Positions 32,963 to 58,248 of a stretch of DNA of 64,000 nucleotides are shown here, one piece after another. The notes beneath the pieces were generated by a model that saw only the letters and a program-made list of their open reading frames with translations, was not told the origin of the DNA and made no database searches. Location of the stretch: assembly GCF_000003815.2 (NCBI RefSeq), contig NW_023365803.1, positions 1 through 64,000 on the forward strand, written 5' to 3'. Source of the stretch: Branchiostoma floridae. Its lineage: Eukaryota > Chordata > Leptocardii > Amphioxiformes > Branchiostomatidae. Position numbers and translations under genes: made by a program. The first letter of the stretch is position 1. The number at the start of each line of letters is the position of its first letter.

Positions 32963-32970
32963 GGCTAAGG

Positions 32971-33573
32971 GGCTAAGGAGTAGTTTACGACCCAAATCAT
33001 TGACTTTTTAGCCCGACGCCAATACCGTGCGTCGGCGGTCAAATACAGCTCCGATGCAACGCGTCTCGCGTCGGGGGCCGACACAACTGCGTCGGGCATT
33101 GCATCGCGTCGGGCATTGCATCGGGCATCGCATCGGTCTCTGCATCGCATCGGTCACTGCATCGCATCGGTCACTGCATCGCATCGGGCGCTGCATCGCG
33201 TCGGGCCTTTCACTGTGTCGAGGATTAAGTCCTTATCTCGGGGATTAACGGATTAACTCCACATGGGACCTTCACACCTACCTGTCAATATTGGTGTGTG
33301 TTGACAGCGGTTCTGGCCTCCAGAGTGCATGCGATGTAAAACTGATACGCGACTGCACAACCTGACCTGACGTATGTAAACGGACTTTATATTGTTATTT
33401 TACCAAACAATTTTAGAAGAATATGAATGAAGAAATTACGGGTGGGTATCAAAATAGGCTTCTCCTCTAGCCTTTGCCTGTTGTGTATTATTTCTACAAA
33501 GTACCTGCTAACAATCACAGGATTACTCAAGCATAGAAATACACATCCAGAAATTAGAGCAAGAGATTCATAT
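32971..33573 (+). repeat. Left terminal inverted repeat of the 24.6-kb unit
   Basis: It matches 56931-57552 in reverse complement. It contains a 17-bp tandem array (GCATCGCATCGGTCACT), with one unit fewer than the right TIR. That and a 2-bp difference explain the 19-bp length difference. The GC-rich outer half and AT-rich inner half are conserved alike. Confidence 0.92.
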
Positions 33574-33580
33574 CAATGTT

Positions 33581-33807
33581 AAACTGAAACGCGACTTACC
33601 ACCTGACCTGACGTTTGTAAACAGACTTTATATTAGTGATTTAACCAAATAATGTTAAAAGAATATGAATATTCCCCTAAATTACGGGTGGGTATGAATA
33701 TCAGCTCATCGCTAGCCTATCCCTGCGGGTGTGTATTTCACAAATTTACCTGCTAACAACTAGAGGTTGAAAGATACAGATTCAGGAAATGAGGCAAGAG
33801 ACTCATA
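33581..33807 (+). repeat. Diverged second copy of the inner TIR segment
   Basis: It repeats 33338-33573 in direct orientation with many substitutions (shared words include ACCTGACCTGACGT, AATTACGGGTGGGTAT and ACCTGCTAACAA). It is absent beside the right TIR. It may be an older sub-terminal duplication. Confidence 0.8.
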
Positions 33808-34463
33808 TAATCAAAACTACTCTATTTAATAAATTCATTGGAAGCATCTTTGTCAGAAAACACGTTATAACAGACGATATCAACCTTGCTATAAAGCTTT
33901 TTACATGTGTAACTTAACGAGGAATGTACAAACTTATTAACTGACAAATTTGTTAAACAAAAAAAAATTAATAACAAGTACCTTGACTTTATTTAAAAAC
34001 CACATTAAACAAATATAGTGCAAAAGAGGTGCTAAAGTTCAACCAGAAACATTAGCTCTTTCAGGGCTCGAAATACCACCTGCATATGCAGCTTAGTGCA
34101 AGAAACATTCCAGATGTGCAGGTAATTCTGAATTTCTGATGCCCACCTGCACCTAACCTGCACTGGTCCATGTTTTGTGTTTTACTTTGACTTTATTCAA
34201 ATTGCGACAATAATGATACAATGTGGACACTAGGCAGCAGACTTATATCGTAACCACATACACATACAATAAAAAAAACAAATATCAAGTAAGATAAAAT
34301 AGTTGATACACTTAAAAACAATTGCAGCTGGAATGTGTGCATGATAAGATAAGAGTTTACAACTAAACAGATGCACGGCTGGAAGTAATCGTTTAGTAGA
34401 TGTCTTAGTCTTGAAGTGCATTGGAAAGTTGCCTATTGATGACATGGTCACATAAACCCTGGA
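33808..34463. other. No gene; one MITE-end-like motif
   Basis: CAGGGCTCGAAATACC at 34063 matches the end sequence of the MITE at 47147 (CAGGGCTTGAAAT). The opposite end was not found. The remainder is AT-rich. Confidence 0.4.
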
Positions 34464-34466
34464 GCC

Positions 34467-34915
34467 TAGAGGTGGGTACTGATACAGTGTACCGGTACAA
34501 AACTGGCTTTTCTTATTGGACCCGTCCGGAAAGAACGGACCCTAAAAAAATTTAGTGGACCAGGTGTTGGACCTATTGGAAAATGAACAGATCATATGAT
34601 CAGGTATTCACACCTTTTGGGACTGACCGGTCGAAGAAAAGAATGAGCGAAGTACAGTGGAGTACATAGTCATTTCTACCAGGTTTTACAGTCAATCATA
34701 CAGAGGCAGTTAGCCTTGTACTTTTTGTAGGATTTTAAGACGCCAGTGGGAGTCGAATACACCGCAAAATAGTTTTTTTTCCAGAAAAATGGACCATTGT
34801 TTTGAGTATTCACGAAATCAGGCCCAGGTTCAGGTCCAGCCCGGGCCCTGTTCCTTGGGCCCTGAACAGGTTTTGAATTTTTGTATGGGTACCCCCCCCC
34901 CCCCCCCCCCCCCCT
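34467..34915 (-). mobile_element. hAT MITE copy, inverted, degraded
   Basis: It begins TAGAGGTGGGTACTGATACA, then GTACCGGTACAAAACTGG, the reverse complement of the right end of the 49580 copy, and ends ATGGGTACC plus a run of about 32 C and TA. The internal words TTTTACAGTCAATCATACAG and GGATTTTAAGACGCCAGT match the family. No exact 8-bp flank duplication remains (CTGGAGCC versus TTGGAGTA). Confidence 0.7.
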
Positions 34916-36012
34916 ATTGGAGTAGTAAAGAAACGGTAAGACATTGCTGTATGAGGCATTCAACAGTGGACATTAGTTCTCTGCATTGGGCAGAATACAG
35001 GGGGCATTGTAGCAGTTGGTGCTCAACTGTTTCAGAAAAAGATCCAGGGACACATTGTTTGCCCTTACTAGGTTTTTACATCAATGTACTATGATGTCGG
35101 TGCATTGCAGACTTTTACCAGCTGCATTGACTGTTGGAATTAATGGCAGTGGTTTCTTGACTGATTTTAGTACTACGAGATGCAGGTATATTTGTGCAGA
35201 TAATGTCTGCGGCTGCCTGCACCAGTGCAAGTTTGGAAAAAAGTATTTCGTGCCCAGTCTTTCATAGATACAATCCATAATACATTCATCTACATAAAGT
35301 AGAAACATCATACAAGTACTACTTATATAAAGGGCAGAATTGGTGTTGAAGTATAAGAACATTTTTACTAAATTACACAATTCTCATAAAACCCTTTTCT
35401 CGGTGATGATTGTTTGCCGACTGCAAAGATGGCCCTGACAAGATTAATGGATATCTATGTCACTAAGACATCAGATCAGATACAGTGAATGCGCTACTTC
35501 ATACATACATTGGCCAAGAAATATAACAATGTCTTCCTTATGAGAAAAGCAGAACTGGTTATAATGTTTTTTTTCCAGTCTAAAGACTTGAAGCTTCATT
35601 TAGTGTCATGCTAATAGTGTCACTAAACACAGTAGGCATCATCTCAATTACTCATTAGTTTAGGTTGGATTGGTACAAGATACATTGTTTATCTGCTGAT
35701 GGCCTCAAATCGTCATGTTCTCTCCCCTCTCCAACGGCTGCAGGTGCTCCCATTCAGGTTCAAATCTTCATCTCCATACAAATTGCCTCCTGTTGATGAA
35801 AAAGTACAGACATACATTACACCTATTCATACAACCGCACCTGTGTTTTTTATCATACATGCGCACATACACATACACATACAAATACATATATAAACAC
35901 ATACACACACATTCATGCCTGAAATTACACATACACAAACATTCACGTAAAGGCATGCACATAGGCACAAGCTCATTATATGCGAACTTACAACTTTGGA
36001 CAAGTGATAAGG
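34916..36012. other. No recognisable gene; (CATA)-rich tract
   Basis: A Cys-rich plus frame at 35016-35267 has no splice context. A simple ACATAC/ACACAT tract lies at about 35865-35915. Confidence 0.4.
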
Positions 36013-36140
36013 TTACCTCGGCCTTGTGTGAGGATTGCAGAGCTGCACTGGAGAACTTCCTACGTGTATGTTGGTTTCTGTTGGTTTCTGTTGGTAGTTG
36101 TTGGTACATGTAGTCACTTCTCCTGCAGTGGCTGGTTCAC
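36013..36140 (-). CDS. Terminal exon, paralogue B, ends NPHTRPR
   Basis: On the minus strand the acceptor TTCATCTATCATTGCAG precedes a frame reading EPATAGEVTTCTNNYQQKPT and ending SSPVQLCNPHTRPR, stop TAA at 36013-36015. It aligns with the terminal exon at 44794-44911 in both the coding part (TxNNY/TSNY ... PTET ... SPI/V ... NP(D/H)TR.R) and the preceding intron end, so the two exons are duplicates. The function is unknown. The high Thr/Ser/Pro content suggests a flexible tail. Further upstream exons would lie at higher coordinates and were not identified with confidence. Confidence 0.5.
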
Positions 36141-36236
36141 CTGCAATGATAGATGAAAGTAAAGGTTAGAAAGCGAAACAAATAACTTTGCAGTGTTGTA
36201 AAGACTGGCAGATACACATTATACCTCAAAACTCCT

Positions 36237-37980
36237 GACTGGACGAACACTGTGCTTTTAACTTCATATGGACTGGTGAGACTGAAACGTACACAAGACA
36301 ACATTTCTCCTGACAGGAAGAACATTGTGCTTTTAACTTCATATGGACTGGTGAGACTGAAACGTACACAAGACAATATTCATCCTGACAGGAAGAACAC
36401 TGTGCTTTTAACTTCATCGGGACTGGTGAGACTGAAACGTACACAAGACAACATACTTTCTGACAGGACAAACACTGTGCTTTTAACTTCATATTGACTG
36501 GTGAGACTAAAACGTACACAAGACAACATTCCTCCTGACTGGACGAACACTGTGCTTTTAACTTCATATTGACTGGTGAGACTAAAACGTACACAAGACA
36601 ACATTCCTCCTGACTGGACGAACACTGTGCTTTTAACTTCATATGGACTGGTGAGACTGAAACGTACTCAAGACAACATATTTCCTGACTGGACAAACGT
36701 TAACACTGTGCTTTTAACTTCATATTGACTGGTGAGACTGAAACGTACACAAGACAACATTCCTCCTGACTGGACGAACGCTGTGCTTTTAGCTTCATAG
36801 GGACTGGTGAGACTGAAACGTACACAAGACAACATTCCTCCTGACTGGACAAACACTGTGCTTTTAACTTCATAGGGACTGGTGAGACTGAAACGTACAC
36901 AAGACAACATGCTTTCTGACTGGACAAACACTGTGCTTTTAACTTCATAGGGACTGGTGAGACTGAAACGTACACAAGACAACATTCCTCCTGACTGGAC
37001 AAACACTGTGCTTTTAACTATATAGGGACTGGTGAGACTGAAACGTACACAAGACAACATGCTTTCTGACGGAACGAACACTGTGCTTTGAACTTCATAG
37101 GGACTGGTGAGACTGAAACGTACACAAGACAACATTCCTCCTGACTGGACGAACACTGTGCTTTTAACTTCATAGGGACTGGTGAGACTGAAACGTACAC
37201 AAGACAACATTTCTCCTGACTGGACGAACACTGTGCTTTTAACTTCATATGGACTGGTGAGACTGAAACGTACACAAGACAACATGCTTTCTGACTGGAC
37301 AAACACTGTGCTTTGAACTTCATAGGGACTGGTGAGACTGAAACGTACACAAGACAACATTCCTCCTGACTGGACAAACACTGTGCTTTTAACGTCATAG
37401 GAACTGGTGAGACTGAAATGTACACAAGACAACATTCCTCCTGACTGGACAAACACTGTGCTTTTAACTTCATAGGGACTGGTGAGACTGAAACGTACAC
37501 AAGACAACATACTTCCAGACTGGATGAACGCTGAGCTTTTAACTTCATAGGGACTGGTGAGACTTAAATGTACACAAGACAACATTTCTCCTGACTGGAC
37601 GAACGCTGTGCTTTTAACTTCATAGGGACTGGTGAGACTGAAACGTACACAAGACAACATACTTTCTGACTGGACAAACACTGTGCTTTTAACTTCATAA
37701 GGACTGGTGAGACTTAAACGTACACAAGACAACATTCCTCCTGACTGGACGAACATTGTGCTTTTAACTTCATAGGGACTGGTGAGACTTAAACGTACAC
37801 AAGACAACATTTCTCCTGACTGGACGAACACTGTGCTTTTAACTTCATAAGGACTGGTGAGACTTAAACGTACACAAGACAACATTCCTCCTGACTGGAC
37901 GAACACTGTGCTTTTAACGTCATAGGAACTGGTGAGACTGAAACGTACACAAGACAACATTCCTCCAGACTGGACAAACA
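36237..37980 (-). repeat. 75-bp minisatellite with 454-codon minus frame
   Basis: About 23 units of 75 bp, i.e. 25 codons (core AACGTACACAAGACAACATT on the plus strand). The minus strand has one uninterrupted frame across 36668-38032 (unit MLSCVRFSLTSPYEVKSTVF then VQSGG), and a second minus frame is also open over several hundred codons. Between units, substitutions are scattered and small indels occur (36700). I treat it as a minisatellite without proof of translation. It lies in what would be intron space of paralogue B. Confidence 0.95.
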
Positions 37981-38031
37981 CATAGCCACACACACACACA
38001 AACACACACACACACACACACACACACGACA
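37981..38031 (+). repeat. (CA)n microsatellite
   Basis: ACACACACAAACACACACAC run directly adjoining the 75-bp array. Confidence 0.95.
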
Positions 38032-38129
38032 CCTAATGTGCTTCTTAACTAGTTTCATTTGTACTTATGCATACACATTTACAATGATGTGATGTCAAAC
38101 TAATGAGAGAAAACATAAATTTTCACTTC

Positions 38130-38248
38130 CTGCATGGCTGCAATCTCACCGATGTCTGTGGAGAGAAAAGTCAGAATCAATAAATTACTGCATGGCTACA
38201 ATCTCACCTATGTTTCTGACAGAAAAGTCAGATTCAATAAATTACTGA
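38130..38248 (-). repeat. Two founder-like units of the 59-bp minisatellite
   Basis: Two diverged units (GCATGGCTGCAATCTCACC and GCATGGCTACAATCTCACC) of the repeat amplified at 41449-42600. On the minus strand each holds a pyrimidine tract (TTTTCTCTCCACAG) followed by ACATCGGTGAGATTG, i.e. splice-acceptor-like and donor-like sequence. Confidence 0.85.
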
Positions 38249-38249
38249 G

Positions 38250-39720
38250 TTCTTAACCGGGTGAATGGGTTTGCTAAATAGCTCCAGCACCATCATGCCG
38301 CACTCGGAATTGGCAGGAAGGCTGGTCATCCTCCAATGTGCCTGTACAAAGTTGCACAGATACAAATGGTCAATCGTGAGGAGTTTCCACACAGCAGCAT
38401 TACAGAGGGCTCTGTGCAAACCGGGGTCCTGGTCCGCAGAATGGACCAATTTGAAGGAGATCTACTTTGACTTGGACCCAACACATCTCAAGGCTTCAAG
38501 CGCAACTAACAGTCAGGGACCCGTCGAGAAACCAAAGTCACCCCGGGTTTGCTGGGCTTTCAACGAAAATAAATACGACGTCACGTTTTGCAGATTTGAG
38601 CACGTCTGCAACTTCTGCTGGAGCAAACTGAGCAAAAAATACAGGCATTCGTAGACGGGATGCGAACGGAAGAAGACAGACTCCAAGCAGTCTAGCGGCG
38701 TGCAAGCCACTGGGATCACGGACAAACTCCCGCAAAAGCAAGCGCGCGGATCGGTACCATGTAGCACCACCAGTTCCGTAGGACGCGCAACAAACTATGT
38801 TCACCTCATGAGAGGTTCTGTGCCCACGCACGATTCGGCTGTTAGTTTTCGGGTTTCGCACAAAACTTGCGGTATTGATGTTTGTTTATGTATTTCCTTC
38901 AACGGAAGGTGGTGCAACGTTGCACACTCAGGACGGCACGAGTATACATGCTTTTGATTCTTGCGTCAATTACAGTGGTGACAAGATGGACTCAACTTCT
39001 GCAAAAGAAGCAAGCGCGGTGTCACACAATATGGACGGTATGTCTAAATTCGGTATTGATGGTAGTTTGCCGGCTTTGCATGAAAAACGGTGTGGATCTA
39101 TTTCTTTCAATAGAAGGCGGTGCAGCCTTGCACATTCCGAACAGTACAAGTACATGTACCATCAATCCTTGGGACGATGATTCAATGGAAGTAATTACTT
39201 CAACAGAAGGCTCCAGTGAGGTTTCTTTTGACTTGTTCCCTTTGACAATTAGCACTCATGTGCACATTTTGGACAGGGGTTTACGAACCTTGCCAATCAG
39301 CGATCATGTTTCTTACATCCTGGACATTAGTTTCCGAGCTTCCATGGAAGCAGTGATGTTTTGAGTTCCACGACAGAAGCGCACGTATATAACCGTCGGG
39401 AAATGACAACTAGCCTTCAGCATGACTTATCGGATTATCAGCGCTGGCATGACAAAGTCATAGAGTCTGGCATGTACGCCTGCCAAGGTGAGCGCATACC
39501 TGTCCCGAGCAAAATACATGTCGGCGCCTGGCATGCCCTATTGGAGGGCTGTCACGACAAAGTTCCTTCCGGTCAACAGTCGCCATCGCAGCTGCTGGGC
39601 CAGACCAAGAAGTCAGCTTTTGCAGCAGGCACTTACAGCAACTTCCGAACCCAGTGGAGAGAGTTCCTGTTATTTTGTGATTTGTTTAGAACTGCCAATT
39701 CAAATTGAGACAAGCACATC
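38250..39720 (+). pseudogene. Tyrosine-recombinase retroelement fossil (DIRS/Ngaro-like)
   Basis: The 5' part has a plus frame (to 38654) ending in a zinc-knuckle-like motif VCWAFNENKYDVTFCRFEHV followed by CNFCW, as in the C-terminal region of Gag proteins of DIRS-group elements ('FN...C.F.HVC..C'). The 3' part, 39590-39708, encodes SAFAAGTYSNFRTQWREFLL then FCDLF, the typical N-terminal SAM-like (core-binding) domain of element-encoded tyrosine recombinases, and stops before any catalytic R-H-R-Y segment. The middle (38868-39200) has internal duplications (GGTGGTGCAACGTTGCACA / GGCGGTGCAGCCTTGCACA). No reverse transcriptase was seen. It is a deleted, non-functional copy. DIRS versus Ngaro or other YR elements cannot be decided. 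Confidence 0.5.
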
Positions 39721-39799
39721 CCGTGTATATCATGTTCACAGCTCTCATGCTTCCAGGTGTGGAAGAGTGTACATTATTCACTCATACGGAAGACATAGG

Positions 39800-40454
39800 C
39801 ATACATTGTGCCATTACATACAAGTTCCTGTGTTTCAGTTCAACTATATGTCAGGGTGATTCTAGTGTTTTACCGCCTCAGACTGTAGCAGCATATGTTT
39901 TGCTGTAGTTGATTCTAAGCACGTCGTCATGTTTAGATATACATGTATAACACTACTAGAGCAGGGCACGCCAATCTGTTAGGTATATGGGTAGTTTGGC
40001 CACAACTCTGGTCAGCCTCGGCTCCATGATGTCAAGTTAAGCCAGTGTTACTACTGTTACGTTAAGAACAAACAACTGCGCTAAAAATGACCTAGCCAGC
40101 TCCATGACTTCAGACTTTGTGAGTACGCAAGCCATAGGAATCTGTCGTGCCATTATATAGGCATTCCTTGTTAACTTAGGTTCACGGCAATTCTAGTTTC
40201 ACCGCCTCAGACCATAGCAGCATAATCTTATGTTCGGCTTGTCGGCACATGTCAGGTTTAGTATATATGACCACTAGAGTCGGGCACGCTGACTTGTTAG
40301 GTATATGCATAGATTAGGTCACACTTCTGGTCGTATTTCACTTGTGATTTCAAGCTAAGCCAGTGTTATTATTAGTCCTGTTCAGAAAGAATTGATTACA
40401 TGCCTTAGAAATGCTGTAGCCAGCTCTACGACGTCAGAACTGTGAGTGTGAGTA
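39800..40454 (+). repeat. Diverged tandem duplication of about 320 bp
   Basis: 39800-40125 and 40138-40454 align: ACCGCCTCAGACTGTAGCAG / ACCGCCTCAGACCATAGCAG, GTTAGGTATATG, TCAAG(T/C)TAAGCCAGTGTTA and CAGCTC(C/T)A(T/C)GAC. These may be the terminal repeats of the preceding tyrosine-recombinase element, which are often split or tandem in that group (inference). Confidence 0.75.
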
Positions 40455-40589
40455 CTCCGCAGCCTGCAATTTTGAATCATGTTACTGCGTTGTTCAGCAA
40501 TCGCCCAATTGCTTGGCTTTAGCCTGAGTATCATCCTCCATAGTGACCGCTGGCTCACGACTATCTTGCTAACCATGGTTAGCTTGGCT

Positions 40590-41000
40590 TATCTCCTTGG
40601 CACGATTACAGCCCTCTCCCCCGGAACAGCAAACTCCCTTCGGGCTTGGTCTAGGTGGTTGCTCATATTTCGAATTAAAGTTCTCTTCAAAGCCCACTGC
40701 ACTCAGGTCTCCTTGCCGTTACTCAGAGTGAGAGTGCAGATAATTGTGTCAGATTTGGGCCTGCGCAAATCTAGTAATTAGCTGCGCCATGACCTCCGCC
40801 CTCACATGACTCATTCTAGCTTCAGTCTAACACGGCTGAGAGGCGTAGATTCTAGGGTTCCATTTTTATTGCCCAACCACCCACCCACCTCGTAGTTGCT
40901 CATATTTTTAAGAATTAAAGTTCTCTTCCAAGCCCACTCAGGTCTCCTTGTTTGTTATTGTTGTTGTTATTGGGTGGGCCGACAACCCACTCTTTGCAGC
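40590..41000 (+). repeat. Second direct-repeat pair
   Basis: TTGCTCATATTT, then GAATTAAAGTTCTCTTC and AAGCCCACT...CAGGTCTCCTTG occur at 40659-40714 and 40896-40950. The repeat could be an untranslated or terminal sequence of the same retroelement. Confidence 0.75.
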
Positions 41001-41049
41001 CAGGGGCTGAATTGCCAGGAGCATACAATAGTCGGGGGGGTAAATCGCA

Positions 41050-41405
41050 AGGGTATGGAGCAAGCTGCCATTCGTCGCCACTAAGGTGACCTCAATACGA
41101 CAGTCGCATGTGTCTGGAGCGAGCTGCCATTCGGCGCCACCCAGGTGACCTCAACACGACTGTCACATGTGTCTGGAGCGAGCTGCCATTCGGCGCCACC
41201 CAGGTGACCTCAACACGACTGTCACATGTGTCTGGAGCGAGCTGCCATTCGTCGCCACTAAGGTGACCTCAATACGACAGTCGCATGTGTCTGGAGCGAG
41301 CTGCCATTCGGCGCCACCCAGGTGACCTCAACACGACTGTCACATGTGTCTGGAGCGAGCTGCCATTTGGCGCCACCCAGGTGACCTCAATACGACAGTC
41401 ATTGC
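41050..41405 (+). repeat. 59-bp GC-rich minisatellite
   Basis: Six units of exactly 59 bp (core TGTCTGGAGCGAGCTGCCAT), in two subtypes (GGCGCCACCCAGGTGACC and GTCGCCACTAAGGTGACC) that alternate. It ends next to the unrelated 59-bp array. Confidence 0.95.
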
Positions 41406-41448
41406 CCCAGGTGCTGCCAAGGTACTCGGAGTGAGAGTGTAGATAATT

Positions 41449-42600
41449 ATTACTGCATGGCTACAATCTTTCCTATGTTTATGAGAGAAAAGAATCAATA
41501 AATTACAGCATGGCCACAATCTCACCTATGATTATGAGAAAAAGAATCAATAAATTACAGCATGGCTACAATCTCACCTATGATTATGAGAGAAAAGTCA
41601 GTATCAATAAAAGTACTGCATGGCTACAATCTCACCTATGTCTTTGGAGGGGAAAGTCAAAATCAATCAAAGTACTGCATGGCTACAATCTCACCTATGT
41701 CTTTGGAGAGAAAAGTCAAAATCAATAAAAGTACTGCATGGCTACAATCTCACCTACATTTTGTATGTCTTTGGAGAGAAAAGTCAAAATCAATAAAAGT
41801 ACTGCATGGCTACAATCTCACCTACATTTTGTATGTCTTTGGAGAGAAAAGTCAAAATCAATAAAAGTACTGCATGGCTACAATCTCAGCTATGTTTTTG
41901 ACAGAAAAGTCAGATTCAATAAAAGTACTGCATGGCTACAATCTCACCTATGTCTTTGGAGAGGAAAGTCAAAATCAATCAAAGTACTGCATGGCTACAA
42001 TCTCACCTATGTCTTTGGAGAGGAAAGTCAAAATCAATAAAAGTACTGCATGGCTACAATCTCACCTATGTCTTTGGAGAGGAAAGTCAAAATCAATAAA
42101 AGTACTGCATGGCTACAATCTCACCTATGTCTTTGGAGAGGAAAGTCAAAATCAATAAAAGTACTGCATGGCTACAATATCACCTATGTCTTTGGAGAGA
42201 AAAGTCAAAATCAATAAAAGTACTGCATGGCTACAATCTCACCTACATTTTGTATGTCTTTGGAGAGGAAAGTCAAAATCAATAAAAGTACTGCATGGCT
42301 ACAATATCACCTATGTCTTTGGAGAGAAAAGTCAAAATCAATAAAAGTACTGCATGGCTACAATCTCACCTACATTTTGTATGTCTTTGGAGAGAAAAGT
42401 CAAAATCAATAAAAGTACTGCATGGCTACAATATCACCTATGTCTTTGGAGAGAAAAGTCAAAATCAATAAAAGTACTGCATGGCTACAATCTCACCTAC
42501 ATTTTGTATGTCTTTGGAGAGAAAAGTCAAAATCAATAAAAGTACTGCATGGCTACAATCTCTGACCTATGTCTTTGGAGAGGAAAGTCAAAATCAACAA
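41449..42600 (-). repeat. 59/68-bp minisatellite with splice-like motifs
   Basis: About 19 units. The basic unit is 59 bp (core GCATGGCTACAATCTCACCT), and a longer 68-bp type carries an extra ACATTTTGT. On the minus strand each unit has a pyrimidine stretch ending CTCTCCAAAG, then ACATA and GGTGAGATT. On the plus strand each has AATCAATAAAAG. Diverged copies lie at 38130-38248 and 44041-44200, so the unit is locally dispersed and this array is a secondary expansion. Confidence 0.95.
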
Positions 42601-43397: not shown

Positions 43398-43401
43398 GCG
43401 A

Positions 43402-43582
43402 TGTAAGAAGTCAGAGGGGCGAGTAGAACAGAAATAAACAATATATACAAATATCCTGACCGACCCGGGAATCGAACCCGGGTCCTTAGGATCACAACAC
43501 CAGCAGTCTAAATGACTGAGCCAAAAGCCTGACAGGCATTTGGCATGATCATTTAGCACTACTTCAACCCCCCACTGTTACA
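43402..43582 (-). repeat. TRIM LTR (3' LTR in element orientation)
   Basis: Virtually identical to 43765-43945. On the minus strand it holds an A-box-like TGGCTCAGTCATTTAGA near 43505-43523 and a B-box-like GGTTCGATTCC near 43470-43481, about 35 bases apart, as in tRNA genes, followed by CCCGGGTC. The acceptor stem does not pair well, so it is tRNA-derived and not a tRNA gene. Confidence 0.85.
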
Positions 43583-43692
43583 CTACTCCCTCTCTTCTTC
43601 TCAAGATTCGTCCTCGAATCTCCGAGTTCGAGCACCCTGTGGGCAGGCACATCTCCGGCCTGTTATCCACCAGGGCCACGTTGGGCGCCAAT

Positions 43693-43763
43693 GTTAGCTC
43701 GGTCGGTAGAGCATGGGACTCTTAATCCCAGGGTCGTGGGTTCGAGCCCTACGTTGGGCGCCA
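43693..43763 (+). tRNA. tRNA-Lys(CUU)-derived copy inside the TRIM
   Basis: The plus strand reads TTAGCTCGGTCGGTAGAGC (D arm), a TGGGA-CTCTTAA-TCCCA anticodon arm with CTT at 43721-43723, GTGGGTTCGAGCCCTAC (T arm), the 3' acceptor strand GTTGGGC, discriminator G and an encoded CCA. The 5' acceptor strand is missing (CCAATGT stands in its place), so a functional tRNA is unlikely. The encoded CCA shows it came from a mature tRNA by reverse transcription and not from a tRNA gene. ACGTTGGGCGCCA recurs at 43678-43690 on its other side. Confidence 0.85.
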
Positions 43764-43764
43764 A

Positions 43765-43945
43765 TGTAAGAAGTCAGAGGGGCGAGTAGAACAGAAATAA
43801 ACAATATATACAAATATCCTGACCGACCCGGGAATCGAACCCGGGTCCTTAGGATCACAACACCAGCAGTCTAAATGACTGAGCCAAAAGCCTGACAGGC
43901 ATTTGGCATGATCATTTAGCACTACTTCAACCCCCCACTGTTACA
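43765..43945 (-). repeat. TRIM LTR (5' LTR in element orientation)
   Basis: Same sequence as the other LTR, with the same internal pol III-type boxes. It stands next to the primer-binding site at 43751-43763. Confidence 0.85.
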
Positions 43946-47569: not shown

Positions 47570-47570
<1 letters not shown>

Positions 47571-47611: not shown

Positions 47612-47612
<1 letters not shown>

Positions 47613-47779: not shown

Positions 47780-47997
47780 TAGATAATGCTTGGACAAGTT
47801 TGATGGAAAAGTACTACATTACATATCAAGAGGAGGAAAGCAAATGCCCACGTTTAGCAAATAACACTCTTGGTTGGCTAAACTCCTTCCAGCTTTGTGA
47901 TATATATTTTATGCCATGGAAGGATCTGTTTGGAGACTTAGATAGGCTTTGGGTAGCCTATGATCCCACAGGTATTCTCCAAGCAGATTTGCCAATG
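47780..47997 (+). CDS. Exon, 72 codons, aromatic/acidic, unrecognised
   Basis: The acceptor TTTTTGCATGATTTACAG ends at 47779 and the donor ATG|GTATGA starts at 47998. The frame is fully open: DNAWTSLMEKYYITYQEEES, then CPRLANNTLGWLNSFQLCDI, YFMPWKDLFGDLDRLWVAYD and PTGILQADLPM. Its composition (Trp, Tyr, Asp, Leu) is strongly protein-like and there is no repeat or transposon motif. The partner exons were not found. It lies inside the 24.6-kb unit on the opposite strand to the paralogue exons. Confidence 0.5.
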
Positions 47998-48751
47998 GTA
48001 TGACAATTTATCCTTGGGTGAAAATAGTACTAATATGGCCATTGGACCATTTTCATGGCATTTTATATCACAAATTATCCTTAAAAGTTTAATTATATAA
48101 TTTAATAGACACCTTACAAAGACCAACAAGGGGATTAACAGCATCAAGTTGATCAACTCATTTAAAAAAAATGTACATCAAAATGTTGAGAAATATTCAA
48201 ATATGAATGGTGCGTTCCAAAAATAGTATTGGGGGTAGGGCGTAACTAAATTTCTTTATACATGTATATATCATTATCATTACCCAAAAGTGCTTGAATT
48301 TGAAACATCTAAGTTATATCATAGTAGAAGACCATGGTTGTGGTGTTATTTGGTCACATCAACATTTTCTTAGCACTCACTATTTTTATTAGCAGACCCC
48401 AACCTGATCTCAAAAATATCTATTGTCTGTGTTGAGACCTCGCTGCGGGGTCCAGGCTAACATTTTCTGTATCCCTCAGCTTTTCCATGTAATGGATGGA
48501 TCAAGGAGGAGGATGGACCAAGGAGTGATGTAAACAAAGACCAGGTCTCGGAGTCATTTATGATGCAAAAAAATCGAATGGTACTATCCGTTTGACAAGC
48601 TGAATGTGTCATGGGGAAGTTGGTTGCGTATGTTGAGTATAAAGTAGAGTATGTTGGGTATTTCCACTGCGTTTTTAATCGTAAAGTTTTTTGTTGTTTT
48701 TTATCGGGCCCCATCCTGATCAACTGGATTGACAATCCTGAAATCGGACAG

Positions 48752-48990
48752 GGTGTGTGTCAGGAGATTCAGAGGAAACATCGGATAGCATATCGGAACC
48801 AGAATGTTTTCAGAGGCATTTACAATACAAGGCCACGAAGGAATGCGGTTTCAGGAAGATATTCGTTAGGTTCCGATCAAAGACCAATTATCTGTCAGAT
48901 TTTCGGGCAAAACGAATAACAACGTTTGACTTTTTGCATCATGAACGGGCCCAGGCAAGGATTGGACTTCAACAGGAGAATGCTATGTAA
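48752..48990 (+). CDS. C-terminal exon candidate, Arg/Phe-rich
   Basis: After ATCGGACAG (pyrimidine-rich stretch at 48677-48712 upstream) an open frame encodes SGDSEETSDSISEPECFQRH, then basic and aromatic sequence (CGFRKIFVRFRSKTNYLSDF) ending ERAQARIGLQQENAM and TAA at 48988-48990. It could be a last exon. It does not join in phase with 47780-47997 directly. The family is not recognised. Confidence 0.35.
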
Positions 48991-49570
48991 TCCCATGAGG
49001 GAATTTCAGTCTCTAGTGTGAACTCTTATCTTGTATGCCTGTTTACGACCTATGCAAATCAGGTGAAACAATGTGCTGATTGAAAGGCACAGGACACCAC
49101 CCTCATTTGCACCTCACTGTCGCATAACTGCTGCAAAATGCCTATTAGTAAAATCTATCTCCTCTTGATAAAACCTCCTTGATGATACATATATCAAGTA
49201 TTGTATGTTTGTTACAGACCTGGAGGCTGGAGCAAAGAAAAGTCAAATGGCAATTGACATTAGGACTCAAGTTAGGGGGGAGGGTTTTTTTGATAAAATT
49301 AAAACCTTCTTGAAAGCACTGAAAGGTACCACAACAATCTAATAAACTAACTGAACCAGCTGTCTACATCCCTACACATCCTTTATGAAGTTTATCTATA
49401 TAGTATACATGTAGGTGCAGAATTCGTTGCTGACATTGCTCTGTCAACAACACATCAAATTGCAAGAAAAGCTTCAACATCCTAAAAATTTTGCAACATT
49501 TGCTCTAAATAATAGATAAGTACATAATAGATAGAGGCTGCTTTTTCTTATGGAACAACTACCTGGGTAT
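48991..49570. other. No recognisable gene
   Basis: AT-rich, short frames only. Confidence 0.4.
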
Positions 49571-49579
49571 AGCCTGGAC

Positions 49580-50012
49580 TAGGGCTGGGTACCGGTACAG
49601 AAAATTCAGGTCCAGGTCCGGTTCAGGTCCAAAGGATCAGGTCCAGGTCCGGACCTGAACCTGGACCTTATTCAGTATGACTCATACCAATGGTCCATTT
49701 CACTACAAAGAAATCTGTTTGGTGGAGTATTAGACTCATACTGGCGTTCTAAAATCCTACAACGCTAACTGCACCTGTGAGAATGGCTGTAAAACTTGGT
49801 AGAAATTACTATAAACTTTACTCTACTTCACTCTTGTCATTTTCTTCCACCAGCAAGCGCCAAAACGTGTGAATGCATGATAAAATAATCTGTTAATTTT
49901 CTAACCGGTCCAACATCCGGTCCACCTAATTTTTTCAGGTCCGGTTTTTCTGGACCGGTCCAATAAGAAAAACCAGTTTTGTACCGGTACGCTGTACCGA
50001 TACCCAGCCCTA
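49580..50012 (+). mobile_element. hAT MITE, 433 bp, best-preserved copy
   Basis: Ends TAGGGCTGGGTACCGGTAC and GTACCGATACCCAGCCCTA, exact 8-bp duplication GCCTGGAC at 49572-49579 and 50013-50020. It carries GGTCCAGGTCCGG-type short repeats near the left end. No ORF. It shares its interior with 44224-44611 and, inverted, 34467-34915. Confidence 0.92.
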
Positions 50013-50052
50013 GCCTGGACTGGATGCCAAACTGTTTCCATGGCCTACACAG

Positions 50053-50209
50053 CCCAACTCCTCAGCCCTATGGCCGCATGCCCCCAAGAAAATTCTACTG
50101 CAGGACATTCATGAGTAAAGAGTACCGGTGCACAACAGATATTATTGAGATCGGGCCGGAGTCTGGTATCCAGGCTTACCTGGGTAGTGGGTACTCATAT
50201 GAACGATAA
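50053..50209 (+). CDS. Short terminal exon candidate, Tyr-rich
   Basis: The acceptor-like TTTCCATGGCCTACACAG ends at 50052. One frame encodes PTPQPYGRMPPRKFYCRTFM, SKEYRCTTDIIEIGPESGIQ and AYLGSGYSYER followed by TAA. It is protein-like, but no other exon is linked. A donor-like CCAG|GTAAGC on the opposite strand means a minus-strand exon cannot be excluded. Confidence 0.35.
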
Positions 50210-51000
50210 TCTCAAGGCACACATCACATTTTTGATTGTTCATATCTTAATATATGACGTTACATGATTTAAAAAAAATTGGTGGTGCACCAATGATCAC
50301 CAATAGAAAAAAAAAACAACAGCTTTGGGCCTGGAGGGCTGTTTTTAAAAAGTGTCTATTCTTCTCAATTGTGGCTCATATTCTGAAGTGTCTTTTACAT
50401 ACCGGTATTTGATCAGGAACATGTTTCTTCCACTCCAGTATCTGCTTGGAGACATGGCACAGGCCAGCAGTTTAATATGGCTGCATACTGCATACCGTCT
50501 TCAGTCGAGGGAGGAGTCGCCTCCTGGCTATAATTTTCTGATCTATGCAGGAATACAAAGACGTTCAAACAACTGATTTCAATTGCCAGTTAATATCAAA
50601 TCGCGTAAAAGTTTGGAACAAGTTTCAAAGCTATTTGATAAATTTGAATATCAAAACGAGTAACGGACATTTTCATGCTCATTTGCATCCCGGATTTGTT
50701 TACAACTTCGACATGTTGTTGACACCATCTGTTTTCAAAAATGATCCGTGAATGAGCAGATGTTTCTTATTCTTCTACATTCAGATTGAGAAGAACTCAT
50801 TCAAATGATAAATCTACAACGTTGATTAAAACCGACTCCAAATTTTCTATGTAATAATTTTAAACTTCTCCTGCAAGTTGCAACTTCCCCTAGTCTTTTT
50901 GCGATACAAATTATATCATGCATGCACTATAATTTTGCAAAAACTTTAATTTCATAATCGGTCCTGTTGTGAACTTCGGAGAGGAATTTTAGTCACTTAC

Positions 51001-51287
51001 CGTGTGGTAGCGTTCCAGTACACCATGCAGAGGGAGCAGTGAAAGCGTCCATGTAGGTCTCTGTCGGCCCGTGCCATGCTGCCCGGCTGATAACTTGGGG
51101 GAATTGGCGCCATATTGGCAGGATCGATCAGGGACAAGTCCGGGCCAGACAAGCACGCTCTGGTCGCTGTCACTTTTCGGGTGGCTAAAATCAACTGTGA
51201 CTGGTTTCTCCTAACAGGCATAACATAGCGCAGCGAGTCAACTTGAGCGGAGTTTGCATCCTTGCAAAACTGGAAATAGCGCGACAT
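51001..51287 (-). CDS. First coding exon candidate, minus strand
   Basis: The minus-strand ATG at 51287-51285 has A at -3 (GATAATGT), and the frame stays open for 95 codons plus two bases to a consensus donor, ACACG|GTAAGTGACT. It encodes MSRYFQFCKDANSAQVDSLR, then VMPVRRNQSQLILATRKVTA, and ends FHCSLCMVYWNATTR with a CxxC pair. There is no signal peptide. The surrounding sequence is relatively rich in CpG, as around a promoter. The next exon is unknown; the terminal exon at 44794-44911 is the nearest on the same strand. Confidence 0.5.
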
Positions 51288-51594
51288 TATCGGAACCGCA
51301 TGCCATGACAGACGCGTAGAAGTTCACACCTTCGCGGGTGCTTACGGATCATTAACATAAAGGTCACAGGTCATTCTCGTTCCCAGGGCAATCCAAAGTA
51401 GTCGAGGCAGCAACTTGTCATGTGTTGAGCTTGAGGCCATGTGGATTTATTTGATTGTATGATTATCATCAATATGAATGACATCCTCTGGAACCCCAAA
51501 ACTGACGCGAGTTTGCTGATAAAAAAACGTTTGCCATTCTAAACGACGTAACGGTAACTAAGGAGGAGGACCCTTTAATACTCGCCAAGCAGAG

Positions 51595-51749
51595 GTTAGG
51601 TTCCGGCTGTTTTTTAACGTTATTTTTAGTCGTTTTTATCGGGGTTTCTACTTTGCATGCACTCCGCAAGGTTAACATACAAAATAGAAAGCCCGATAAA
51701 AACGACTAAAATAACGTTAAAAAACAGCAGGAGCCTAACCTCTGCTTGG
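51595..51749. mobile_element. Near-palindromic MITE, 155 bp
   Basis: CCAAGCAGAGGTTAGGTTCC at the left pairs with GGAGCCTAACCTCTGCTTGG at the right. The pairing continues through TTTTTTAACGTTATTTTTAG / CTAAAATAACGTTAAAAAAC to about 65 bases, leaving a loop of about 25. No clear target duplication. The end motif is shared with 28171-28335. Confidence 0.8.
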
Positions 51750-52420
51750 AGAGGCCACAGCATTTAAATTTTTATGGATCACATCAACGCGATCATTAAT
51801 TTTTCGCCTGGTTTCAGAAGAAAAACATCTCTTCTTCGGAGATGGTCAACATGATGAGAGAGTATCAAAATGGGAACATATGTTGTGCTGACTGTGGCCT
51901 AATGATTATACTTTTAGAAGTGAGACCAGCGAGGTAGCCATGACTGTACTAGTAGTTGTAAAATTGAAACAAGTTAGACTTTACTTAGATCTAGATACAG
52001 TAAAACCTGCCCAAAACGACCACACAGGGGACCGGACAAAAGAGGTTGATTTGGACAGGTGGTCGCTGAGAAGAGTATCGACTCACAAAATGCCCGATGC
52101 GTATAAATGCTTTCCGTTGCAAGCACACGCACGCAAAGAAGTAAGTATAAATGTCAAATACAACACGCACACGCACGCAAAAAAACCGCTGTGTTATTGA
52201 TCGCTGTATCTGTACGTCCCATCCACTGAAATTACTGTACGATGTACCGTAACTGTTACAGACAGTGTTGTCAGAGGATGTCATCAGATGCATTATAATG
52301 AAACACCTGCATTCAGAGAATTGTTATATGTAATAATGTACAAATAGTTAGTCATTATCGTATTCATGTATACAAATAATTGATAATTCAAGGCACTCAG
52401 ATAGAAGAGGGTCTACGGGG

Positions 52421-52433
52421 GAGGGGGGGGGGG
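52421..52433 (+). repeat. G homopolymer run
   Basis: GGGGGAGGGGGGGGGG just 3' (in element orientation) of the non-LTR remnant. Confidence 0.85.
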
Positions 52434-52439
52434 TATTTT

Positions 52440-53825
52440 TTTATTGCAACATTAATACAGTACAAAACATAGTGGTGCTCCCACTCAAGCACACAGACTT
52501 AACGTTATATCAAAGACACCACTAGACAAAATGTTAACACAACATAGGACAAAAAAGATGAAACGGGTACGGGAACGCCTAATTCTAAAAAGAAACGGAC
52601 GGATAAACTTATGTTACCAATAGTAAATGATACGGATAGTCAAAAAGCAATTTTAAAATTGTTTTGTTTCGGAAAGATATGATTGAGTTATGGAGAGAAT
52701 TTGGGAATTTATATCATATGTCAGTAAAGCCGATCCTTTAAGTAGCAGATAAACAAAATAACTATCAGATAACGAATTTAATTCTAACATAGGAATATTC
52801 AGGTTTTCAAGTCTGTCTAAGAGGAGTGTACGTTGTTGAACATAATTAGGACAGAGAAGCAGATAATGAGTAATGCTTTCGCATCGGCATCCGCAGCTGC
52901 AAGCAGGACTCGCAACTAAGTTACGAATGAACAGACTGTGGTTTAAGCTGCAGGTGCCGATGCGAAGACGTGTGAGTAAAGCGCAGGTGTATCTCGGTCC
53001 TGAATTAAAATATGGTACAGCAACAGGGCGAACAGATTTGACCAAATACCTTTTAAAACGAGCAGCGCTCAACAAACGAACACTAGAATCAAGAGAGTTC
53101 CATAACTGAGTTGAGTGCGGTTAAAAAGATTTTTGAAAACAAGTGGTATTACACACTGGTACTTGGAGATTGCGTTTGCTGCGAAGATTGTATGACGTTG
53201 TTGCAGAAACCTCTGGCGGTAATAAATCGGTTAAATACTTCCGTGTTTGGCCATTAACAATTTTATGGAATAGAACAAGAGAATGAACATAATGTCGATC
53301 AGTTAACTTTTCCCAGCCAAGTTCATGAAGAAGAGAAGAGTACGAAGACCCCCTCACGGCACCAGATACCGTAAGGGAGCATTCGTATTGTATCCTCTCA
53401 ATAAGAAGAGAATCAGAAACTGAACAGCTATGCCATACAACATCGGCATATTCCAACGAAGGTCGAATAAAAGACTTGTAAATAACTTCCAGAATTTGAC
53501 GAGGGAGTTTAAATTTCAAACTGTTAAATATACATACCTTCTTCGAAACCTTCGCAATCATTTGAGAAATATGGGTTGTCCATGACATGGAGGACTTTAA
53601 AGTTACTCCAATGTGTTTATGGTCTTTCACTGATTGAATACTGGTGTTACCAAGAAAAAGGGGCGAATGGATGGGAGGGGTACGTTTCCTTGAAAAACAA
53701 ACTTCTTTAGATTTGGATGGATTAAGCTCCATTAACCATTTTTTGGTCCAGGATAGAATATTTTGAGATCGGAGAATCCCATCCCGTCTCCTGACAACGC
53801 TCACGAAGGTCGGCAACGCTTTTCG
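52440..53825 (-). pseudogene. 5'-truncated non-LTR retrotransposon, 3' part of ORF2
   Basis: The minus frame from 53816 encodes the C-terminal half of a reverse transcriptase: NILSWTKKWLMELNPSKSKE, HIGVTLKSSMSWTTHI and PSLEYADVVW, in the order 'W...W...LN..K', 'LGV.L...L.W..H', 'P.LEY...VW' of Jockey/CR1-type elements. After an in-frame TAA at about 53121-53123 the same frame continues with TQLWNSLDSSVRLL and the terminal zinc motif CSCGCRCESITHYLLLCPNY (C-x-C-x4-5-H-x4-C). It ends at about 52653, with AATAAA-like sequence near 52440. The catalytic YxDD part is absent (truncated near 53825), so it is inactive. The clade is not certain. Confidence 0.75.
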
Positions 53826-56800
53826 CTAAATTCAGAAAATCCGGGAACGATGACTACAGAGAGCTACGTATACAGAGGAGGATGTAGTATCCAAGCAAGA
53901 TCTGGCGGTGGCATAAGATAGTATCATAAATCTGCTTGGAGAGGCGGCGTCAGCAAATGTCATATGTGGCGGTATGCTCCGCCGTGAAGATTTTGAGTTT
54001 TGACTGTATTTCGAGGGGGAAATTTCGCTGATAAATATTTTGACCGCAGTTTATCTAAAAGTAAATCATGAGTACATTTTGAACATTCCTCCCGGCGTTA
54101 TATCTGATGTTAAGAAATCCTTTGATTCAAAATTCTGAATAAAAACATTGTGGGGTTGATCAATTTGTATTACAATACACTGAACAATAAGGAAATGATT
54201 CATTCACAAAAGAACGATTATCGATTTGGGGCAACTTTCGCTGACAAAATATTAAGCACATGGAGCGCACTATTTTTCCTGTGACCTGTGGGGCCTGGTA
54301 GAGACTAAGAGCTTCATACGCACCTCAAACGGACTTGAATATATACGCATGTGTGATCCCACCTTAAGGTGGGTTTACACCTGCGTATATTTTCAAGTGC
54401 GCGTGAGTTCCGCATCTGAATCGTTTTTAGAAAGCTTCAGAAAGTTTCAAGTACGCAGACAAACGAAAATATACCCGATAGTTTTGGATATGCACAAAAC
54501 TATCATTCGTACGCAGTTTGGTGGCCAAAACGTTATGGATGCGCAATACAGTGGTCCCACGTCGGTCGATTGCGCTATAAAGACGCTACATGTTTGCTCT
54601 ATATACGCGGATATCGCGGTATTGCGAGTACATAACGTACATATACAGCGCAGACACAACGCATCATGAGCGACCGTATAACGAATGCACACATAGATCA
54701 CGATTAAGTACCGTGCTTTCTGCGATCGGGTTGCGCATACTACGCGTACTGATAGCTACTTTATAGCTACTGCAGTGCGGCACCCATACCGCAAGTGAAG
54801 TGAGATACCGCCTTGTATCTCAATGTGCGAAGGCACTTTTATGGTAGACTTTGACGCCATTATGCGTCACGGTGTTTCCAACAAACCCCAACATGCCTCT
54901 TGCAAAGGCACTAGTACTTTGTTTTTAACCCCCAAAAAATAACGCAAGTGGCAAAATACCTAGGCATTGCCTCCACCATGCCGGCAACAAAACGCGAATT
55001 TCAGCTTCAAGGTGATATGTATATTTTATTACGTTATCTATACTGCCCCAAGTATCAAAATGAACATCCTTTTATCACTGCAAATCTATTTCCGATGCAT
55101 TCTGTACCGCGAATGTTGGGAGACAATAGGCTTGGATTGGCCGCGAATGTGCCCCCAGTAGGCGTCATGAATTATAAGTCTGTAAAAAAGATTATATCTA
55201 TCCACATACATATCACTACTCTGATACATCATAGACTGAAATCTGGTATATGGTTGGTTTAGTCTTGTAATGTTAGAAGTATACTTGATGATATGTTACC
55301 TAATAGTATGCTGTTCCAAGTATCATAAGTGAACATCCTGTTAACACTTCTTGCAAATCCCTTTCTGATAAATGCAGTTTGATAATATGACATCGACTTT
55401 TAATTCATTGAAAGCAATGTGATTTTCAATAACATGTTCATCAGGGCTTGAAACGCAAATGTACCGCAGGTCAGTGTGACCACAACAGAAAAGCTAGTAG
55501 TGGTTTAAAAAACGCAAATGTGGTTACGAACTGGTCTATTGTACAAATTCACATCGGTTGCACTGGAGTCCATACTTTCACAGGTGTGTGTGTGTGGGGG
55601 GGGGGGGGGGGTAATATTCATTTTTGGGTTAAACCGCCATTAGTAAAAGTGATTTTTCAAATGGGTGATTTTGGAACAGTCTGGATATGGTGGGTATCCT
55701 AAAATATGATTCTTAGTTCTGTTTAGTTTTTTTCATCACCAAGTTCCGAAGGGAGGAAAATTGTGTGGAAATGGAAGATACATTCACGAAAACGTCTTAC
55801 AGCGTTTGCTGCTTGTTGCGCTGAGTGTGAAGATTCCATGAACAGCATAGATGAATTCCTTATCCAAGTATGGTCTTTAAAATTAAAAATGCAGTCACCA
55901 AAACTTAACCACTCTCTGGCAACTACGCCACGAGTAACGAACATCGGGAGGGCAGACTTCAATTCATGGGACTTCTTTTTAGCCTCAATTACGCTTTACG
56001 TGACATTTTTACTTTTAGGCTCGATTGCGCCTTTCGTGAAATAGACTGTCTACTGCTTACGATAGATTTCTCCCTCCTCACTGCGAATTACGGGAAATTG
56101 AAAAGGCCTGCCTTCGCCTTACGGAAAAGAGCATGCAGACCCTCATTCAAGTCCCTTTGAGGTCCGTATGGGGTTCTTAATTATCCTCTACCAGGCTCCA
56201 CAAGTCTGCGGTTTCATCCGTATATGATGTTGGGCCAGCGCAGGTTCCCTAGATAATATTTTCTTTTCGCTTTTGTCCTAAGTTATTTTTAGCTTTCTCC
56301 ACCTTCTGTCAAATCTCCAAATCAACAGCTCTGGCCAATCAGCTTGCTTGTTTGATTAAAGCAAATGTTCTGGAACTTGGTCCAGGGATTAAATGGACAA
56401 CAGGCCCTTTTATATTGTTATAGTATGCTAGTTCAAAATGATTTTGTTATTTGGGCCATTTGTCATCCAACAATGTGTAATCTGGAAAATTCCATTCATG
56501 CACGGGGAACATTATTTTCAATTCCTTTTATGAAAGGATTGATTATACAAAAGCCCATGCCTTGAAGTGTTTATGAACTGTGTCTATTTTAGTATTTTAC
56601 ATGGGACGTACTGGAAGAGTCCATTCTTGCAGGGTGACAAGTAAGTGTTTTTGGACTGGTCCACTTTAAATAGGGTGTCACTGGGAGAGTTATTCTTGCA
56701 CGGAGGGGGAATTTTTTTACAAATCAATTTTGGACTTAGGTGGTGATTCAAAATCCTTTTTATTACCGGGGCAGAACAGAAGTCAAGTGTTTTTTCTACT

Positions 56801-56930
56801 GCTTCATTCTCGTGCGAGGTTATCTCGGAGTGTTATTGAACTTGTCACATGTTGCCAGCTTTACAGCAAGACTGATATCACTATTACAACGGTATTTCTG
56901 CTTATTTTATTGAAGAGAGTATTTCTGTTT
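53826..56930. other. No recognised gene; possible short palindrome and MITE ends
   Basis: 53890-53945 begins ATCCAAGCAAGAT and ends ATCTGCTTGGAGA, a small palindrome with the CCAAGCAGA-type end. GTGGGTTTACACCTGCG at 54369 and CAGGGCTTGAAACGC at 55443 look like single MITE ends without partners. A G-run lies at 55595-55611. Open frames (54349-54669, 54948-55262, 55966-56160) have no motif. Confidence 0.35.
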
Positions 56931-57552
56931 ATATGAATCTCTTGCTCTATTTTCTGGATGTGTATTTCTATGCTTGAGTAATCCTGTGATTGTTAGCAGG
57001 TACTTTGTAGAAATAGTACTGGGAACAGGCAAAGGCTAGAGGAGAAGCCTATTTTGATACCCACCCGTAATTTCTTCATTCATATTCTTCTAAAATTGTT
57101 TGGTAAAATAACAATATAAAGTCCGTTTACATACGTCAGGTCAGGTTGTGCAGTCGCGTATCAGTTTTATATCGCATGCACTCTGGGGGCCAGAACCGCT
57201 GTCAACACACACCAATATTGACAGGTAGGTGTGAAGGTCCCATGTGGAGTTAATCCGTTAATCCCCGAGATAAGGACTTAATCCTCGACACAGTGAAAGG
57301 CCCGACGCGATGCAGCGCCCGATGCGATGCAGTGACCGATGCGATGCAGTGACCGATGCGATGCAGTGACCGATGCGATGCAGTGACCGATGCGATGCCC
57401 GATGCAATGCCCGACGCGATGCAATGCCCGACGCAGTTGTGTCGGCCCCCGACGCGAGACGCGTTACATCGGAGCTGTATTTGACCGCCGACGCACGGTA
57501 TTGGCGTCGGGCTAAAAAGTCAATGCTTTGGGTCGTAAACTACTCCTTAGCC
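56931..57552 (-). repeat. Right terminal inverted repeat of the 24.6-kb unit
   Basis: Reverse complement of 32971-33573 with about ten substitutions, one extra 17-bp unit and a CCCAG/GTGT difference. It is followed by the 8-bp GGCTAAGG duplication. Confidence 0.92.
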
Positions 57553-57557
57553 GGCTA

Positions 57558-58248
57558 AGGTCCGATTTAGACACAGGTCCCTTTAACCGACCTGTGTCGG
57601 TTAACCGTCATATGACGCTTAACCGCCACGGGTCTAAAGAGGAAATAAGGGGCGTATGACGGTATTTCCACGAACCGACCTGAGCCACTCCAGACCTGGT
57701 TCTGGGTCGGTTCAGCGGGGGGCCCGTGACGGTTTCTCTCGTGTGTAAAGAGTAACCGTCACCGGTGACGGTAGTAGAAGGTCGTGGATCATATGCTAAT
57801 AATATGCTACCAAGCCCGTATCAATGGAAACATGTTTTTCCTCATTCTAATCGTTTGAGACATTGAACGTCGTCGAATTTTCCAAGAGGAATGGCCTGCG
57901 ATCGGTGACTGCTTTGGTGCCCTCCTATGACCCTATTAACGTGCCCGGGTTGCGCTACCATGTACCAGTGCGGTGAGGACAGAAGCTGAGTTCAAGCCTA
58001 AGTATTGCATGCACATGTACTAGTAAACATTAAAAACATAAACAGTATTTAGGTATAAACTGTTGCAAGACGAAAATATGCGCCATTTTTATTCGCGCAA
58101 TACTAGTATCCTGCGCCACGGGCGGCCTGCAACGCTGCCGCCCGCCCGCACCGGTGTGTCTAAAGAGAACCGTCACGTGTCGGTTAAGCGTCATATGACG
58201 GTTAACCGACACGTGTCGGTTAAAGAGTTTTGTGTCTAAACCGGGCCT
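57558..58248. mobile_element. 691-bp MITE with TA duplication and ~90-bp TIRs
   Basis: The ends AGGTCCGATTTAGACACAGG and (reverse complement) AGGCCCGGTTTAGACACAAA are flanked by TA at 57556-57557 and 58249-58250. The inner TIR part holds nested short palindromes (CCGTCATATGACGC, CCGACACGTGTCGG). The TA duplication suggests a Tc1/mariner-type mobiliser. It was inserted in the Gag-like array before the 24.6-kb unit, because the unit's target site GGCTAAGG spans the array/MITE junction. Confidence 0.85.

Follow-up and report, generated by a model that had tools for sequence, protein, structure and literature searches.

Giant transposons with long terminal inverted repeats in Branchiostoma floridae, probably a low-copy Merlin (IS1595-related) family

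To our knowledge, few giant DNA transposons are known in animals. Polinton/Maverick elements have long terminal inverted repeats (TIRs) and a 6-bp target duplication, piggyBac elements and Teratorn target TTAA, MULEs mostly generate 9-bp duplications, hAT termini are of the CA type, and duplications of 8 bp also occur in hAT, P and Zisupton elements. The Starships of fungi are giant cargo-bearing mobile units with a tyrosine-recombinase captain, and we know of no long TIR with an 8-bp duplication among them. Ordinary Merlin elements are about 1-4 kb long. The best-known giant animal DNA transposons are described as virus-linked, namely Polinton/Maverick (15-40 kb, with polymerase and integrase genes) and Teratorn, a piggyBac-herpesvirus fusion of 41-182 kb with 18-bp TIRs (PMC6431247). 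Long TIRs and captured gene fragments are described as typical of MULEs (PMC3310237, PMC6446971). The Merlin superfamily is described as a group of eukaryotic DNA transposons related to IS1016/IS1595, with GG tips, an 8- or 9-bp duplication, TIRs of 24-462 bp and a DDE_Tnp_IS1595 domain as hallmarks (PMC8101967). The word Merlin is absent from the main text of a review of giant eukaryotic transposons (PMC6431247), and no report of a giant Merlin element was found among the papers listed in searches of the open literature, subscription papers, Repbase and preprints lying outside that scope.

The window analysed here, the whole stretch of 64,000 nucleotides, corresponds to C245:1-64000, on a contig of 179,643 bases, and the genome surveyed comprises 513,431,437 bases in 431 contigs. 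The original prediction for this window was that a giant DNA element, with TIRs of about 600 bp that are roughly 98% identical by eye, had transposed once and generated an 8-bp duplication. The TIRs, the exact GGCTAAGG duplication and two further copies on contigs C1 and C8 bear this out. The window copy, termed W, occupies 32971-57552 (24,582 bp) and is bounded by TIRs, with the exact 8-bp duplication outside them.

32963-32970, plus strand: left target site duplication, GGCTAAGG, 8/8 identical to 57553-57560
57553-57560, plus strand: right target site duplication, GGCTAAGG, a direct match to the left copy
32971-57552, unstranded: whole transposon copy W, its ends lying within 1-4 bases of the points at which homology to the C1 and C8 copies ceases
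32971-33576, plus strand: left TIR, starting 5'-GG (alignment of the two ends)
56928-57552, minus strand: right TIR (alignment of the two ends)
33089-33206, plus strand: subterminal 12/17-bp repeats of the GCATCGCATCGG type within the left TIR (repeat reading)
57302-57435, minus strand: subterminal 12/17-bp repeats within the right TIR (repeat reading)

The 20-mer GGCTAAGGAGTAGTTTACGA is found at 32971-32990 (plus strand) and inverted at 57533-57552 (minus strand). With lengths of 606 bp (left) and 625 bp (right), the two TIRs are 95.4% identical by BLAST over 625 columns, including a 17-bp indel that sits in the subterminal repeats, and show 9 mismatches in 606 aligned bases. An exact 8/8 match of the flanks has a chance probability of about 2e-5.

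The predicted span of the unit needed correction on one side. The array does resume at 58251, but the element ends at 57552, and a small, separate element with its own TIRs takes up the sequence from there to 58250.

57559-58247, unstranded: small element with TIRs and flanking TAA/TTA, in the left end of which W inserted (flank joining and TIR reading)

When the flanks of W were joined with a single GGCTAAGG, the left TIR of the small element was whole, which indicates that the giant element jumped into the small one, itself inserted in the array. The surroundings of the small element, which with its TAA/TTA flanks is presumably Harbinger-like, are consistent with the array word found at 32828, except for the middle base of TAA/TTA.

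The ends of W recur in the genome. The exact terminal 20-mer has 13 occurrences, versus none for a reversed control, its 22-mer extension (at most 3 mismatches) was found at 17 places, versus one for the control, and a search with the 610-bp TIR gave 25 matches. Both ends, facing each other, delimit a copy of 24,628 bp at C1:19855215-19879842 and another of 29,838 bp at C8:1816206-1846043. The flanks are GTCTCCGC and GTCTCGGC for the C1 copy (7/8 match) and GGCGATTG on both sides of the C8 copy (8/8 match). Between W and these copies, homology halts 1-4 bases from the TIR tips, and in 10 of 12 pairwise comparisons of 4-kb flanks nothing was shared, the remaining two having one dispersed 71% repeat in common. 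The interiors of the three copies are collinear, with most blocks 91-97% identical and two at 67% and 79%, and each copy has private insertions and deletions. Collinear interiors, private indels and unrelated flanks together identify W, C1 and C8 as independent insertions. Full matches to W segment 55300-56925 were found only in these three copies among the 40 candidates scored.

Two-ended units number five. Four of them measure 24.6-54.4 kb, including a larger sister copy on the contig of W (B, see below) whose right tip is interrupted, and the fifth is an 87-bp miniature at C2:18409418-18409504 with the same tips and flanks matching in 6/8 positions. The TIRs thus do not occur mostly as short complete elements; the opposite pattern had been named in the original prediction as evidence against a giant unit. 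Left ends for which no right end was found lie on C17, on C9, at C245:82847 and at C1:20727807 (80 bp only). For two further matches with 3 mismatches, on C7 and C13, a partner end was absent from the 3 kb examined. Giant units with common TIRs, collinear interiors and 8-bp duplications at three independent sites are therefore present in this genome, and we consider a giant transposon family with an 8-bp duplication to be real, with very little room for doubt.

The duplicated targets GGCTAAGG, GGCGATTG, GTCTC[C/G]GC and GCCCGACG all begin with G-N-C, the last of them on one strand, chosen for this. Among the left-only copies one of four flanks, GACAAAAG, begins with G-N-C as written. This is possibly a weak target preference, or nothing.

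The interior of W contains tandem arrays and the remains of other elements.

36232-37981, unstranded: 75-bp tandem array, present too in the C1, C8, C9, C17 and B copies
38265-39708, plus strand: broken open frames whose Cys pattern resembles a zinc knuckle (by eye; without Pfam match)
41451-42597, unstranded: 59-bp tandem array (repeat reading)
52653-53825, minus strand: reverse-transcriptase-like (LINE) remnant (by eye; without Pfam match)

The DNA of the broken frames, which we take to be DIRS/Crypton-like, is common to the W, C1, C8 and B copies. A comparison of all six frames of 32971-57552 with Pfam (stops masked) gave no transposase, polymerase or capsid over cut-off, as had been noted from the sequence. 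The weak matches, to PI-PLC-X (E 0.013), DUF6342 (E 0.048) and DUF4250 (E 0.00068), were all below their cut-offs, so that the gene exons originally proposed for the unit were not confirmed. In the portion of the alignments examined, open reading frames (ORFs) common to the copies gave no support for coding constraint, and indels were often not multiples of three. In the C1 and C8 segments absent from W, inspection of ORFs of at least 70 aa by eye revealed a LINE-like remnant and no transposase. W is likely to be non-autonomous, as had been suggested.

Two other features of the interior were recorded. A tRNA-like sequence at 43688-43758 (Rfam RF00005, 45.5 bits) is flanked by two 182-bp direct repeats, at 43401-43582 and 43764-43945, that are 100% identical. 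A near-palindromic remnant lies at 54316-54415, where the C8 and C1 copies have about 4.9 kb and 3.5 kb, respectively, of other inserted sequence.

The larger sister copy, B, extends on the same contig from a left end at 94823 to a right end at 149223, about 54.4 kb without any N in its interior. W and B share only the left part and the TIRs. The two TIRs of B show one difference in 484 bases, whereas between the right one and those of W, C1, C8 and the 82847 copy the divergence is 1.7-2.9%. About 36 bases past the TIR are common to the right ends of B and W, which marks the B right end as being of the right-hand type. The C17 copy has a left TIR that is identical to the left one of B and differs by 0.2% from the right one. 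It is thus as close to the right TIR as B's own left TIR is, and the TIR match alone does not tie the ends of B together. Two other stretches of the contig resemble B. One of them, 82847-94594, has a different flank at its start and is 95-97% like the left part of B. The other, 153210-162335, matches B 106133-113839 and then departs from B at 113839; it may be part of a copy starting at 149224 or of the 82847 copy, as the scaffold has gaps. At the departure point, the sequence is like the inserted-element remnant at window 54367-54415. The region 172001-179643 is not collinear with B (166001-172000 being outside the comparison). Beyond 113.8 kb, a repeat of about 930 bp, present in high copy number, dominates the whole-genome matches to B. 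No second long copy of 130.5-133.9 kb or 139-143 kb was found among the 40 best candidates scored for each, and the stretch of B at about 114-148 kb was seen once in the assembly. We infer that B is one element, although an assembly error is possible, because its right TIR breaks off against another end and the contig piece borders on gaps at both tips.

Both ends of B abut other pieces of TIR. TIR bases 1-127 lie at 94696-94822, directly before the left end, and the right TIR breaks off at TIR base 120, with another end following directly at 149224. The overlap between the TIR pieces 1-127 and 120-603 is exactly 8 bases long (CGTCGGGC), the same length as the duplication. Most simply, this would mean that one giant copy inserted in the right-hand TIR of another, nearly identical one, and that both were merged by the assembler. 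Similarity between the end at 149224 and the B TIR is only 82-83%. Alternatively, these pieces may stem from two independent insertions at a single site or from a misassembly. The C17 sibling matches B at 99.5% identity over 2.5 kb, a sign of recent movement.

B contains an intact ORF of 325 aa (C245:131797-132771, minus strand) that matches Pfam DDE_Tnp_IS1595 (E 3.6e-20) and, over cut-off, the NCBIfam IS1595 family transposase model (E 9.4e-30). A left end and a right end, both of this family, thus enclose an intact transposase of the IS1595 type. The residues D167, D231 and E270, spaced by 63 and 38 residues, are also found in the product of C6:8448541-8449479, the only other full-length intact relative. 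The PF12762 profile identified three loci in 513 Mb: the B ORF, the gene on C6 and, at window 2261-2587, a degraded piece. A protein search of the genome gave 9 matches at 7 places, comprising the three profile loci, three more on C6 and one on C2; the additional four are all fragments or broken. With both searches, no IS1595-type match was found in W or at the C1 and C8 copies, and the relatives on C6 (4/7 places) and C2 (1/7) are not beside any identified giant copy. By contrast, the 179,643-base contig of W holds two of the three loci by profile, or two of the seven by protein search, which is hard to ascribe to chance, though the contig is rich in varied mobile DNA. Besides the transposase, ten of the 22 ORFs of B (at least 110 aa, 107-148.7 kb) were compared with Pfam, one of them in part. 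None exceeded a cut-off, and the sole weak match was to Pox_VERT_large (E 0.064, below cut-off).

A small Merlin element around the transposase ORF was sought at 123-142 kb, using 20-base TIRs (at most 6 mismatches) with an exact 8- or 9-bp duplication. The only match was a high-copy MITE pair, and the candidate was rejected. A 311-bp inverted pair at 122950 and 136110, near the ORF, is a high-copy MITE.

Two relatives of the transposase merit a separate description. The C6 gene has an intact frame of 356 aa from stop to stop, is 60-62% identical to the B transposase and could be a domesticated Merlin gene. In the window, pieces of Merlin transposase are found at 2261-2587 (with four stops) and 1961-2057, and the region 1961-3544 also has one stretch that is 70% like B 137216-137945 and another that is 89% like B 139299-139385. 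This region is, as far as these similarities tell, a degraded older relic of the same kind as B, outside W.

The likeness to Merlin consists in the presence of TIRs, in the 5'-GG tips of W, C1 and C8, in the 8-bp duplication (8/8 at W and C8, 7/8 at C1, 6/8 at the miniature) and, in B only and if B is one element, in a DDE_Tnp_IS1595 transposase with a DDE triad. The differences are mainly of scale, with 24.6-54.4 kb here versus about 1-4 kb in ordinary Merlin elements. The TIRs of 606-625 bp are longer than the reported 24-462 bp, a range that is descriptive and not a rule (PMC8101967). The family here also carries a large load without recognised genes. Teratorn is likewise a giant animal cut-and-paste element, but its piggyBac transposase, TTAA target, 18-bp TIRs and herpesvirus genes have no recognised counterpart here. 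Polinton/Maverick elements are similar in length and have long TIRs; they differ in their 6-bp duplication, and DNA polymerase and integrase domains were absent from W in the six-frame Pfam comparison. Long TIRs and captured DNA are reminiscent of Pack-MULEs and other long-TIR MULEs, but the W and C8 duplications are 8 bp and cannot be extended to 9, and no MULE domain was found in W. The tips of the present family, GG...CC, are unlike hAT termini. A KDZ transposase, as in Zisupton/KDZ elements, had no Pfam match in W and none over cut-off in the 10 of 22 B ORFs scanned. Starships are comparable as giant cargo-bearing units, and differ from the present family with its long TIRs and 8-bp duplication. 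Since Merlin fits, the undescribed type of element envisaged in the original prediction is not needed.

The assignment has to be weighed against three other explanations. An origin by segmental duplication or, as considered originally, by rearrangement between a pair of small elements with common ends could draw on the fact that the 8-bp word GGCTAAGG is also W's own first 8 bases, and on a 71% stretch of 300-384 bp that the right flank of W shares with both C8 flanks. However, GGCTAAGG is found at both tips of W, C1 and C8, of which the latter two are flanked by other 8-mers, and their homology to W ends at the TIR tips. The 71% stretch is at non-corresponding distances from the element, as fits a dispersed repeat. 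Two further complete collinear copies with their own, different duplications lead us to reject this explanation as extremely improbable and to regard W as a true giant transposon.

It is unlikely, but conceivable, that an unrelated transposase (e.g., MULE, hAT, P or Zisupton-like) moves the giant TIR elements and that the Merlin gene came to lie between their ends by accident. Duplications of 8 bp are not exclusive to Merlin, long TIRs with captured gene fragments are MULE-typical, and the Merlin gene is in the stretch seen once. Yet neither the six frames of W nor the ten B ORFs contain another transposase domain over cut-off, GG tips and 8 bp fit Merlin, and the contig of W holds two of the genome's few IS1595-type loci. 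We also consider it rather unlikely that B consists of left and right fragments of two copies flanking host DNA with a lone Merlin gene. Such a composite would be in keeping with ends that abut other TIR pieces beside assembly gaps, with the divergence of the second B-like stretch at 113839, and with a C17 left TIR as close to the right TIR of B (0.2%) as B's own left one. The other full-length intact Merlin ORF, at C6:8448541, would also fit, as no convincing TIR or target duplication was found in the 10 kb examined there (in the one candidate, 9/20 TIR bases were mismatched). Against a composite stand the single difference in 484 TIR bases, the absence of any N from 94823-149223 and the right-specific extension of the right end.

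Together, the above observations favour, with a probability of roughly 0.7, the reading of W as a non-autonomous member of a low-copy giant Merlin (IS1595-related) family, mobilised by a B-type transposase. In this mechanism, an IS1595/Merlin-type DDE transposase would bind the TIRs of about 610 bp, excise the element at its 5'-GG tips and join it to 8-bp staggered cuts in the target. The cargo between the TIRs, 25-54 kb consisting of other repeats and of sequence that is mostly non-coding, would be irrelevant to the move. The B transposase would be the enzyme that acts on these TIRs, and W would be mobilised by it in trans.

Somewhat more tentatively, and with the odds slightly in its favour, the data point to a giant Merlin lineage made up of an apparently autonomous element of about 54 kb, recently mobile and self-inserted in a TIR of its own kind, of non-autonomous partners of 25-30 kb, and of an 87-bp miniature, so that the lengths carried by a single pair of ends would differ by almost three orders of magnitude. 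Should a plain single-gene transposase of the IS1595 type be able to carry 25-54 kb, virus-like machinery would not set the limit on size. Extensive genome segments could then move as units, and the family would offer a compact transposase whose natural payload is large.
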